64,000 bases of DNA from Mycobacterium heckeshornense (lineage in GTDB: Bacteria > Actinomycetota > Actinomycetes > Mycobacteriales > Mycobacteriaceae). Both the position numbers and the translations under genes were made by a program. Below are positions 10,092-20,035 of the stretch, one piece after another. The notes beneath the pieces were generated by a model, which saw only the letters and a list, made by a program, of their open reading frames with translations, made no database searches and was not told the origin of the DNA. How positions within the stretch are numbered: position 1 is the stretch's first letter; each line of letters opens with the position of its first letter. Location of the stretch: the NCBI RefSeq assembly GCF_016592155.1, contig NZ_AP024237.1:1860001-1924000 (forward strand). The letters are read 5' to 3'.

Positions 10092-10115
10092 CATCATACC
10101 CAGCTGGGTATGATG
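10092..10115. promoter_or_regulatory. Palindromic operator of CsoR/CstR type (site 1)
   Basis: A perfect 24-bp palindrome centred on ATACC-CAGCTG-GGTAT (10096-10111), with CATC/GATG outer arms. It is about 75 bases before the thioredoxin start. The same ATACC-N6-GGTAT core occurs four more times in this window, each upstream of a redox gene. Confidence 0.65.
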
Positions 10116-10148
10116 GCAGGGAATTTCTCCGGGTAATCTGCCGCTTGT

Positions 10149-10164
10149 ATACCCATACAGGTAT
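10149..10164. promoter_or_regulatory. Palindromic operator of CsoR/CstR type (site 2)
   Basis: ATACC-CATACA-GGTAT, 24 bases before the thioredoxin GTG. It overlaps a second dyad, ATACAGG-TATT-CCTGTAT (10155-10172). The spacing equals that of the other four sites. Confidence 0.65.
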
Positions 10165-10188
10165 TCCTGTATGACGAGGAGGTAAAGT

Positions 10189-10551
10189 GTGGCAACCATC
10201 GATCTGACTGCCGGTAATTTCGACGACGTTGTCAACAGCCCCGGCATCGTGCTTGTCGACTTTTGGGCGGGGTGGTGCGGTCCCTGCCGAATGTTCGCAC
10301 CGGTGTTTGCTCAAGCGTCCGAGCGGCACCCGGACATCACCTTCGCCAAGGTGGACACCGAGGCGCAGTCGGCACTGGCGCAGGCTTACCGGGTCATGTC
10401 CATCCCGACACTCATGGCAGTGCGCGACGGTGTCGTGGTCTACGCGCAGCCTGGCGCACTGTCTTCGCCGATGCTTGAGCAGCTGATCGAGAAGGTCCGC
10501 GCGTTGGACATGGATCAAGTACGCGCATCGCTGGCAGCGGGAGTGTCGTGA
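10189..10551 (+). CDS. Thioredoxin
   Basis: The 120-residue thioredoxin-fold protein has the active site WAGWCGPC at about residues 27-34 and the cis-Pro segment SIPTLMA near 77. It is a cytoplasmic disulfide reductase. The GTG start follows GAGGAGG by about 6 bases. Two ATACC-N6-GGTAT dyads lie in its promoter region, and a YgaP-like membrane protein gene starts one base after its stop. This suggests a sulfane-sulfur or copper stress operon rather than the housekeeping trxA locus. Confidence 0.9.
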   Translation: MATIDLTAGNFDDVVNSPGIVLVDFWAGWCGPCRMFAPVFAQASERHPDITFAKVDTEAQSALAQAYRVMSIPTLMAVRDGVVVYAQPGALSSPMLEQLIEKVRALDMDQVRASLAAGVS

Positions 10552-10552
10552 A

Positions 10553-10819
10553 ATGGCCTGCACCGAGCGAGCAGCGCTGGGAATGCCGCATCCCCACGGG
10601 TGGCCGCTGGAGCGAGTGGTGAATCTCCTTGCGGGGCTTATGGTTGTCGTGAGTTTAGCTTTGGGGCGTAAGCATTCGGCCCGGTGGCGAATTCTCACTG
10701 GGGTTGTGGGGGCGAACCTAATGTTCAATGCGATGATTGGTTGGTGTCCAGGTAGCCTGCTACTACATCGGCTCGGTGTTCCTGGGGTGTTCCCGGTGAA
10801 TGAGTCCGCCTTGTTTTAG
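10553..10819 (+). CDS. YgaP-like (DUF2892) membrane protein, 3' end altered by IS
   Basis: The 88-residue protein has PLERVVNLLAGLMVV and ANLMFNAMIGWCPGSLLLHRLG, the two hydrophobic segments and the GWCP signature of the DUF2892 domain found at the end of YgaP rhodaneses. The family is commonly associated with sulfane-sulfur handling. The ATG at 10553 is one base after the thioredoxin stop. The last codons (ESALF and the stop) lie inside the left end of the insertion sequence at 10801, so the native C-terminus has been replaced. The family core is complete, and the protein may still work. Confidence 0.75.
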   Translation: MACTERAALGMPHPHGWPLERVVNLLAGLMVVVSLALGRKHSARWRILTGVVGANLMFNAMIGWCPGSLLLHRLGVPGVFPVNESALF

Positions 10820-10852
10820 AGTCCTGTGGCCCCGTGGATGGGGCTGGAAGGG

Positions 10853-11146
10853 ATGATGAAACACATGGGTGGTCGGAAGCGGCATTCCGCGGAGGACATC
10901 GTGCGCAAGCTGCGCCGCGCGGACGAGCTGGCCGCGGCGGGCAAGACCGGTGAGGAGATCGCCGCCGAGCTGGAGGTGTCGGCGGCGACGCTGTACAACT
11001 GGCGCCGCACCTATGGCGGGATGGATATCGATGCCGCCAGGCAGCTCAAGGAGTTGCGGGAGCAGAACGCGCGGTTGAAGCGGCTTTTGGCCGAGGCGGA
11101 GTTGGAGAAGGATGCGTTGCGGGAGGTTGCGAAGGGAAAATTCTGA
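10853..11146 (+). CDS. IS3-family transposase OrfA
   Basis: The 97-residue protein has a helix-turn-helix (TGEEIAAELEVSAATLYNWR, about residues 33-52) that binds the IS ends and a leucine-zipper-like segment (LKELREQNARLKRLLAEAE). The start at 10853 (or 10856) is the first ATG before the conserved GGRKRHSAEDIVRKLR. It ends in the frame +1 to orfB around GGGAAAATTCTGA, where IS3 elements normally make the OrfAB fusion by a -1 shift. Confidence 0.85.
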   Translation: MMKHMGGRKRHSAEDIVRKLRRADELAAAGKTGEEIAAELEVSAATLYNWRRTYGGMDIDAARQLKELREQNARLKRLLAEAELEKDALREVAKGKF

Positions 11147-18556: not shown

Positions 18557-18583
18557 TTTTCTGGCCGTCAATCCCCGGCTGGT

Positions 18584-18856
18584 TCATGCCAGCGACAGGA
18601 ACAGCTTCTCCAGTTCGTCTTCGCTTAACGGGGTGCCGAGTTCGCCGGTAGCCCCAGTGATGCACTGGCGCATGCCGGTTGCGACGATCTTGAAACCGGC
18701 GCGGTCCAGCGCGCGGGAGACCGCAGCCAGTTGCGTGACAACATCCTTGCAGTCGCGGCCGGATTCGATCATGGAAATGACCCCGGCGAGTTGGCCCTGG
18801 GCGCGGCGCAATCGTTTGAGCACCAACTCCATTGCTTTGGTATCAGTGGTCGCCAT
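18584..18856 (-). CDS. CsoR-family repressor, CstR-like (no Cu-binding His)
   Basis: The 90-residue four-helix protein has the family core [17 protein letters not shown], then [10 protein letters not shown] and GMRQCI. It keeps the two Cys of the family, but the His four residues before the second Cys, required for Cu(I) binding in CsoR, is Gly here. The run DCKDVxTQ is also found in CstR of Staphylococcus, which senses persulfides through its two Cys. I therefore favour a reactive-sulfur sensor. The ATG at 18856 is preferred over an upstream start at 18880. It is the last gene of the DUF302-DsbA operon. Confidence 0.82.
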
Positions 18857-18937
18857 GATTGTCGGTGTCCTTTCTTCCAACGATGATGGACGCCACCAGC
18901 GCCACGGTCGTCGGTTGACGGCGATCGCCGCAGCACA

Positions 18938-19552
18938 TCAGCGGTTTTCGGATGCGGCAGCCCGTGGCGGGCCCTGGTAGGGGCGCTGCAGCACGGCGAA
19001 TCCCGGAGTGGACGCGGCGGTCAGCACGGCGTCAAGCAACGTCACACCGTCATCTCGACCGGGAACACTGGTCAGCACCGGTCCGAAGAAACCCCGACCG
19101 TTGACCACGATGATCGGGCTTCCCGCACTGCCTCCCAGCGCGTCCTGACTACGGCGGTGCGTAATTCGTACATCCTCGTCCCATGCCGGATTGTCGAGTG
19201 CGTCAACCAGAGTCGTGCCGACCTTGGTTGCGGCCAGCGCCTCGGTGAGGACGGTTTCATCCGATGGCTTGGCCGCGTCATACATCAGAGTGCCGAAAGC
19301 GTCGTAGAGGTTCGCAAAGGCCTCGGGGCCACCCCGGGCGGTCACGGCGGCGAAAACTCGCCCCAGACGACGTGACCATGCCAACTTGTTCCGCTGATGT
19401 GAGTCGACGTCTTTTCCTTCGTTGAGGATCGCCAGGCTCATCTGGCGCAGTGTGCAGGTGCGGCCCGTCGCGGTGGCCGCCTGCTGTAACCAGCGCCAGG
19501 TCACCCACGAAAACGGGCATATCGGGTCCAGGTAGAGTTCGATCGCGCTCAA
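18938..19552 (-). CDS. DsbA-family protein with CPFS motif (nitroreductase-like)
   Basis: The 204-residue thioredoxin-fold protein resembles the mycothiol-dependent nitroreductase Rv2466c (MSLAILNE, GSPIIVVNG-x-FFGPVL). The active site here is DPICPFSW, so the second Cys of the usual CPWC is Ser, leaving a single reactive Cys as in GST-kappa proteins. The TTG start overlaps the DUF302 stop (TTGA), showing coupling. The substrate is unknown. Cytoplasmic location is likely, because no signal peptide is present. Confidence 0.82.
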   Translation of the reverse strand: MSAIELYLDPICPFSWVTWRWLQQAATATGRTCTLRQMSLAILNEGKDVDSHQRNKLAWSRRLGRVFAAVTARGGPEAFANLYDAFGTLMYDAAKPSDETVLTEALAATKVGTTLVDALDNPAWDEDVRITHRRSQDALGGSAGSPIIVVNGRGFFGPVLTSVPGRDDGVTLLDAVLTAASTPGFAVLQRPYQGPPRAAASENR

Positions 19553-19959
19553 CGCAATTCCTTGGCCAGGGTGTCGATCGCTTCGCGCAGCAATCGGGTT
19601 GCCTGCTCGGCCACCGGGGTCAGCGCCGGTTCGGCGACCACCTGCACCATCACCTGCGGGTCCATCGCCTCGATGTGCACTGTCGCCGGGTTTTGTGCGT
19701 CCTCGCGGACCACGACGTTGCAGGGCAGCAGCAGCCCAACCTGCTTGTCCGCATTCAGCGCACGGTGGGCCAGCTGGGGATTACAGGATCCCAGGATCAG
19801 GTAGCGCTCCATCGACTCGCCGAGCTTTTCCTTGAGGGTCGCCTGCACATCGATCTCGGTTAGCACGCCGAAGCCATTGTCTTTCAAGACTTCCCGCGTC
19901 TTGGCGACAACCTTGTCGAAGCCAACGCCAGTGGTCGAGGTGCTTATCGCGATGGACAT
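19549..19959 (-). CDS. DUF302 domain protein
   Basis: The 136-residue protein has the DUF302 pattern: VGFDKVVAKTREVLKDNGFGVLTEIDVQ (quoted here only in outline), ILGSCNPQLAHRAL, and GLLLPCNVVV. The Cys in SCNP and PCNV are the conserved ones of the family and may handle reactive sulfur. It leads the operon DUF302-DsbA-CstR, with tandem operators 25-75 bases upstream. The ATG at 19959 follows CGGAGGG; an upstream GTG-type start would run into the operators. Confidence 0.8.
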   Translation of the reverse strand: MSIAISTSTTGVGFDKVVAKTREVLKDNGFGVLTEIDVQATLKEKLGESMERYLILGSCNPQLAHRALNADKQVGLLLPCNVVVREDAQNPATVHIEAMDPQVMVQVVAEPALTPVAEQATRLLREAIDTLAKELR

Positions 19960-19985
19960 GGTTTTCCCTCCGTCGGGGACCTCAT

Positions 19986-20001
19986 ATACCCGCACCGGTA
20001 T
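19986..20001. promoter_or_regulatory. Palindromic operator of CsoR/CstR type (site 4)
   Basis: ATACC-CGCACC-GGTAT, 27 bases before the DUF302 start. Extended arms give TATACC/GGTATA (19985-20002). Confidence 0.68.
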
Positions 20002-20019
20002 ACGATACGAGTCTAACCG

Positions 20020-20035
20020 ATACCGGTGTGGGTAT
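20020..20035. promoter_or_regulatory. Palindromic operator of CsoR/CstR type (site 5)
   Basis: ATACC-GGTGTG-GGTAT. It is the reverse complement of site 4 with one difference, and the two centres are 34 bases apart. Tandem sites suggest co-operative binding and autoregulation of the operon. Confidence 0.68.

Follow-up and report, generated by a model that had tools for sequence, protein, structure and literature searches.

Among the closest described systems is ScCsoR (SCO0620) of Streptomyces coelicolor, a repressor whose reported operator is ATACCn6GGTAT, with two sites in the Scpdo promoter, and which binds DNA less well in the presence of polysulfide, with persulfidation of Cys37 (PMC7533328). 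We analyzed a 64,000-nucleotide stretch of Mycobacterium heckeshornense DNA (contig NZ_AP024237.1, positions 1,860,001 to 1,924,000; here called the window), in which a CstR-like repressor very likely runs a persulfide-type regulon through ATACC-N6-GGTAT operators. As the window motif is identical to the ScCsoR operator, neither the operator nor the predicted sensing mode is new. The two systems also have in common tandem sites, two cysteines and autoregulation, but the reported ScCsoR targets are PDO, a rhodanese and a sulfite transporter (PMC7533328), whereas those in the window would be thioredoxin, DUF302, DsbA, AhpD, PIG-L, ctaD and MmpS/MmpL. Staphylococcus CstR is likewise a His-less dithiol relative of CsoR, and a plasmid cstR/cstA intergenic region contains ATACC-N6-GGTAT, but the protein is 40% identical to the window repressor over 58 residues, and the cst operon encodes a sulfurtransferase, PDO and SQR. 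The copper repressor RicR belongs to the same family and has the same half-sites, but it differs in its Cys-His-Cys pattern, its operators with a seven-base spacer (N7) and its copper genes. TTHA1953 of Thermus is described as a CsoR-family repressor of sulfur genes and a thioredoxin, although its reported operator is TACNNTACNNNNGTANNGTA and its targets are distant from the regulator gene (PMC10318464).

An earlier, sequence-only reading of the window had placed five such dyads upstream of redox genes. All five were recovered by a motif scan, exact and at the positions claimed:

10096..10111, no strand assigned: operator 1, exact ATACC-N6-GGTAT in the trx promoter, 53 bp upstream of operator 2 (start to start)
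10149..10164, no strand assigned: operator 2, exact ATACC-N6-GGTAT
15129..15144, no strand assigned: operator 3, exact, overlapping the ahpD start codon and upstream of the divergent mmpS
19986..20001, no strand assigned: operator 4, exact, predicted to serve the DUF302-DsbA-CstR operon
20020..20035, no strand assigned: operator 5, exact, 34 bp from operator 4 (start to start)

Their placement directly upstream of redox genes held for the genes named, with the refinement that the 15129 site overlaps the ahpD ATG (15130-15128) and is also 107 bp upstream of a divergent mmpS-mmpL pair that had not been listed. By eye, operators 2 and 5 lie within −35/−10 spacers, operator 2 seemingly inside the promoter-like pair TTGTAT(10145-10150)-N19-TATGAC(10170-10175) and operator 5 inside a similar putative pair, TTGTAT-N18-TAGACT. 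A position in the −35/−10 spacer has likewise been reported for the operator of NreA, another family member, in a source according to which, as of 2025, no DNA-bound structure had been reported for CsoR-family repressors (PMC12724321).

Seven exact sites occur genome-wide (one contig, 4,957,188 bases), five of them inside this roughly 10-kb part of the window, and a reversed-pattern control gave no exact site in the same genome. For uniformly placed sites, the probability that at least five of seven fall in one given 9,940-bp stretch is 7e-13, or 4e-9 when the stretch is anchored on one site. Among the matches listed at no more than one mismatch, there were 54 places, as opposed to 18 with the reversed pattern. 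One of the one-mismatch sites, at position 53261 of the window, is inside the open reading frame (ORF) 52938-53471 and was not counted as an operator. The sixth exact site, C1:1365505, has a divergent DUF302 gene on one side and an AhpD-DsbA-MmpS-MmpL run on the other, and this locus is a second copy of much of the window gene set. The seventh, C1:1618464, was rejected as a target because it lies within a crotonase-like ORF (named by eye). Many sites with no link to redox genes, the pattern that the sequence-only reading had named as contrary to it, were thus not found; the same gene families adjoin six of the seven exact genomic sites.

The window encodes a single CsoR-family repressor with two cysteines and without the copper-ligand histidine (Cys44, Gly69 and Cys73), just as had been claimed. 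It scores 79.8 bits against 22.8 for the PF02583 CsoR/RcnR (DUF156) domain, and its closest solved relatives by sequence are CsoR-family chains, with 7mq1 the best. We aligned 66 distinct CstR-like proteins with 24 distinct RicR-like ones. Every protein of both groups has Cys44 and Cys73 (66/66 and 24/24), while position 69 is occupied by Gly in 65 CstR-like proteins, by Arg in the remaining one and by His in all 24 RicR-like proteins. Three PF02583 proteins are present in the genome, namely, RicR (184.9 bits versus the NCBIfam RicR cut-off of 175), the window protein and a short CstR-like copy, L003. Assignment of the window protein to RicR was rejected (43.9 bits versus the cut-off of 175; Gly69; N6 operators), as was assignment to FrmR or RcnR (26.3 and 19 bits versus NCBIfam cut-offs of 133 and 138). 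NCBIfam offered no further name, as neither the window protein nor even the annotated Staphylococcus saprophyticus CstR matched a model named CstR. In the repressor's own promoter, both the 19986 and 20020 sites match ATACCn6GGTAT exactly.

The short copy L003 (C1:1445164-1445373, minus strand) has its first cysteine displaced by two residues. No N6 site was found upstream of it, and the gene looks decayed. A locus of the sister species G186, with a downstream neighbor like that of L003, carries an intact CstR-like copy and an N6 site.

In the sets examined, our comparison suggests that spacer length separates the paralogues, with N6 at CstR-like loci and N7 at those of RicR. The 30 best CstR-like loci (3.3 kb each) of 198 same-genus genomes hold 36 N6 sites, distributed over 26 loci, and zero dyads with a spacing of 2 to 5 or 7 to 12. 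In the 30 best RicR loci of 118 genomes, scanned for spacings of 2 to 12, we found 25 N7 sites in 25 loci, no N6 site and no other spacing in that range. A set of 80 named CstR-like loci (1.41 Mb; Mycobacterium, Streptomyces, Rhodococcus, Gordonia, Williamsia and others) contains 118 N6 versus 2 N7 sites, the latter both in one locus, and at most one site of each other spacing; at least one N6 site is present in 67 of these loci. The M. heckeshornense genome has four exact N7 sites, found at ricR, at mymT (identified by NF052418, over cut-off), just 5′ of the probable start of an ArsP_1 permease gene, and at C1:2008622. The surroundings of this last dyad (L079) showed, by eye, no convincing copper gene. 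At the first-listed N7 loci of 30 genomes, adjacent ORFs matched the RicR reference once and the CstR-regulon references never, and several of them resemble, by eye, copper chaperones or P-type ATPases. The Cu-CsoR consensus reported for Streptomyces lividans is also N7 (PMC3902906). Within titles and abstract openings, we met no published spacer rule and no link between MmpL and sulfide, although Staphylococcus aureus CsoR/CstR papers from 2011 and 2014 may already show the N6/N7 difference.

Across the 198 genomes, a close CstR-like protein (called by a clean gap between E values of 2e-29 and 4e-10) is present in 168, every one of which has at least one N6 site (mean, 4.64). The 30 genomes without such a protein average 0.77 N6 sites, with 15 at zero and a maximum of 2, and the reversed control gave 0.33 per genome in both groups. 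N7 sites are found in all 198 genomes, at a mean of 4.63 with and 3.10 without the CstR-like protein, so N7 also differs between the groups, albeit far less than N6. When RicR was searched for in 18 of the 30 CstR-less genomes, 16 had a close relative (E value of 1e-39 or better), one had a weaker match (1e-19) and one had none.

The N6/N7 split is also seen outside the genus, in plasmid loci of Bacillota and of one Deinococcus, among those that have an exact dyad. We chose 25 plasmid loci from the match lists, in which 497 records matched the repressor; gene names are those of the records. Twenty of these loci lack His at position 69 (the alignment of one, L285, stops short of the residue), and 14 of the 20 have an exact N6 site, two of them together with an N7 site at least 7 kb from the regulator. 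The five loci with His69 gave three with N7, two with neither spacing and none with N6. Among the N6 loci are two annotated Staphylococcus cstR loci and others from Leuconostoc, Bacillus, Mesobacillus, Lactiplantibacillus, Lacticaseibacillus, Clavibacter and Deinococcus; the N7 loci are two Staphylococcus regulator-P-type-ATPase loci and one from Cellulomonas. Because of extensive shared sequence, three pairs cannot be counted as independent: the two cstR loci, the two Staphylococcus copper loci, and the plasmids of M. lentiflavum and M. chimaera. The Deinococcus support consists of a single locus, whose site and regulator are 1.3 kb apart. For Leuconostoc and Clavibacter, the N6 site is upstream of the first gene in the run that contains the regulator.

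The distances between neighboring N6 sites follow a pattern of their own. In 50 distinct pairs less than 130 bp apart, start-to-start distances were 21 to 22 (3 pairs), 31 to 37 (33 pairs), 53 to 57 (10 pairs) and 81 to 102 bp (4 pairs), and no pair was found at 23 to 30 or 38 to 52 bp. The distances look as if they were helically phased, with a four-turn class missing, and the 34- and 53-bp pairs of the window fit these classes.

Pfam and NCBIfam profile searches agreed with the gene assignments that had been made for the window from its sequence, and also supported those of mmpS and mmpL:

10189..10551, plus strand: thioredoxin (WCGPC); PF00085 and TIGR01068 over cut-off
10553..10819, plus strand: YgaP-type membrane protein, the DUF2892 protein of the earlier reading; PF11127
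12244..13941, minus strand: ctaD paralogue, one of three in the genome; CtaD profile match
14038..14817, minus strand: PIG-L/LmbE-type deacetylase; PF02585
14777..15130, minus strand: AhpD-like CxxC protein; PF02627 and TIGR00778 over cut-off
15252..15683 (longer ORF from 15186), plus strand: MmpS accessory protein; PF05423
15680..18556, plus strand: MmpL RND transporter; TIGR00833 over cut-off
18584..18880, minus strand: CstR-like repressor (Cys44, Gly69, Cys73); PF02583
18938..19552, minus strand: DsbA/Rv2466c-like protein with a CPFS motif; PF22234
19549..19959 (longer ORF to 19995), minus strand: DUF302 protein; PF03625

We take the PF11127 YgaP-type transmembrane family and DUF2892 to be the same. 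All matches of the PIG-L protein to the MshB, Mca and BshB models were below cut-off. In alignments whose rows were not made nonredundant, both cysteines of DUF302 are kept in 42/42 rows, the AhpD CxxC in 12/12 and Cys12 of the DsbA-like protein, which has CPFS in place of CxxC, in 12/12. Between the trx operon and ctaD lies an IS3-type transposase with broken frames (10826-12007, identified by eye), and the G186 cluster has a similar element after its ctaD. The window ctaD may be cotranscribed with ahpD-PIG-L. One of the other ctaD copies adjoins serB-like and fecB-like genes (names by eye) and is probably the canonical one. The third (C1:3191242-3192903, L195) is located beside an HTH regulator and a truncated-hemoglobin-like ORF (by eye), which suggests a separate stress-specific oxidase subunit.

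For the window and for loci L019-L078 and L083-L162, we tallied the distinct proteins (clustered at 90%) that were called beside N6 sites, with genes in fetched loci called by a simple script and some neighbors named by eye. This gave MBL-rhodanese or rhodanese-like proteins (43), CstR (24), DUF302 (10), RND (9), MmpS (8), thioredoxin (7), AhpD (4), AhpC (2), YgaP (1) and DsbA (1), and SQR-like, MBL-rhodanese, rhodanese and TauE genes are found near N6 sites in other species. Genes of the window set are also found near one another in sister species. The G186 cluster reads N6-DUF302-CstR-MmpS-MmpL-N6-AhpD-Trx-CtaD (91%), with some other ORFs between. A DUF302-DsbA-CstR operon preceded by tandem operators is also present in M. 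fragae, with the same 34-bp spacing as in the window, and on an M. branderi plasmid, where tandem N6 sites precede DUF302-DsbA-CstR-MmpS-RND-DUF2892. Plasmid pFLAC0181 (M. intracellulare) carries DUF2892, CstR and MmpS-MmpL together with two FAD oxidoreductases that come closest to type III SQR but score below cut-off, and the M. lentiflavum and M. chimaera plasmids carry DsbA, CstR and MmpS-RND. The CstR promoter has an N6 site in all three of these plasmids, as does the MmpS promoter in the latter two. A stretch of about 11 kb on pMYC1 (M. adipatum) combines ctaD, CstR and DUF302 with TauE, rhodaneses, MBL proteins and an SQR-like oxidoreductase, with an exact N6 site between rhodanese genes and a near match in the CstR promoter. 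Recurrent members of the regulon are thus DUF302, AhpD, thioredoxin and exporters of the MmpS/MmpL or another RND type, joined in some cases by ctaD, and relatives add SQR-like, MBL-rhodanese and TauE genes.

Several other mycobacteria likewise have CstR-like genes or N6 sites in sirA-hemN-mbtI surroundings, which in the window lie at 6354-9546 and 21857-23209. Homologues of hemN, sirA or mbtI lie within the fetched DNA at ten distinct other N6 places (twelve loci, with two pairs from the same place), making this a recurrent neighborhood for the regulon. At L218 and L220 (G073 and G016), an N6 site lies between a TetR-like ORF (by eye) and MmpS/MmpL genes, and no CstR-like gene was called in the 8 kb fetched at either.

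That the regulon responds to persulfide or sulfide and regulates its own repressor, as the sequence-only reading had proposed, is supported by operator identity, the Cys/His pattern, the co-occurrence of N6 sites with CstR and the sulfur genes in relatives. Several observations weigh against this interpretation. An exact N6 site is absent from 4 of the 30 best same-genus CstR-like loci, 13 of the 80 named ones and 6 of the 20 His-less plasmid loci. The difference in N6 counts between genomes with and without the CstR-like protein (P = 5e-16 by a Mann-Whitney test) is uncorrected for phylogeny, and 80 of 189 distinct N6-adjacent ORFs match no reference family, although many may be wrong-frame calls. 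None of the seven exact sites is at an SQR or rhodanese gene (SQR and TauE were not searched genome-wide), and the genome has no full-length MBL-rhodanese relative (best, 36% over part), so its version of the regulon leans on thiol-redox proteins and export. These targets, general thiol-redox proteins (Trx, AhpD and DsbA) with no SQR or PDO at exact sites, would also suit a CstR-like build whose main ligand is another thiol-reactive species, such as HNO, peroxide, hypochlorite, a quinone or another electrophile. S. aureus CstR is reported to react with HNO too (PMC5480029), and TTHA1953 reportedly lost DNA binding with H2O2 or Cu(II) under nonreducing conditions and kept it with NaHS (PMC10318464). 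We nevertheless regard such a ligand as unlikely, given the SQR-like, MBL-rhodanese, rhodanese and TauE genes at related loci with the same operator and the reports that ScCsoR and YrkD, with the same Cys pair, answer to sulfane sulfur.

The identical half-sites raise the further question of whether RicR, alone or with the CstR-like protein, controls the N6 sites as part of a copper regulon. The ScCsoR authors noted the similarity of their motif to RicR/CsoR sites (PMC7533328), and H2S exposure is reported to induce the CsoR and RicR copper genes of M. tuberculosis (PMC6987094), which means that in cells the responses to sulfide and to copper overlap to some extent and that full insulation should not be assumed. 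Yet the best RicR loci have N7 and never N6, as do the genome's own ricR, mymT and permease sites and the S. lividans consensus (PMC3902906), and the CstR-less genomes have few N6 sites, even though most of those searched have a close RicR. RicR ownership of the N6 sites was rejected on these spacing and co-occurrence tests, and we consider it very improbable. Related modules on mycobacterial plasmids, the IS3-type element within the cluster, and L003 with its lost first Cys position and no upstream site would fit a passive remnant of a mobile island whose genes are no longer coregulated. This explanation is extremely improbable, however, as the dyads are exact in five operators while the spacers vary, the 34-bp tandem spacing is common to M. 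fragae, and the cluster ORFs besides the transposase are open and match their families.

For the preferred interpretation, a persulfide-type regulon under the CstR-like protein, we infer DNA binding, the ligand, derepression and each target's biochemical role from the genomic patterns above. The dithiol CsoR/RcnR-family repressor would bind ATACC-N6-GGTAT operators lying over promoter elements and repress its own DUF302-DsbA-CstR operon, the thioredoxin-YgaP operon and the divergent ahpD-PIG-L(-ctaD)/mmpS-mmpL region; the same operator is found at the partial second copy of this gene set, at another place in the genome. Persulfide or polysulfide would modify Cys44 and Cys73 and release the repressor, which would induce thiol- and persulfide-handling proteins and the MmpS/MmpL exporter. 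The six-base spacer would set these sites apart from the seven-base-spacer sites of RicR.

Judging from sequence comparisons, an N6/N7 spacer code probably insulates persulfide from copper regulons in Actinomycetota, Bacillota and perhaps Deinococcota, and the persulfide regulon of mycobacteria and their relatives, also borne on plasmids, probably recruited MmpS/MmpL-type or other RND exporters and DUF302 repeatedly, with an additional cytochrome oxidase subunit I recruited in certain species. We know of no answer to how paralogues with near-identical half-sites avoid cross-talk, and the spacer rule, clean in the sets examined, makes this question directly testable. Candidate roles in reactive-sulfur handling emerge for DUF302 and for one group of transporters of the MmpS/MmpL and RND types, and on a single plasmid, pMYC1, an extra ctaD is seen next to SQR-like and CstR-like genes. 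The spacer rule would allow copper and sulfur-stress regulons to be told apart in annotation from sequence alone.

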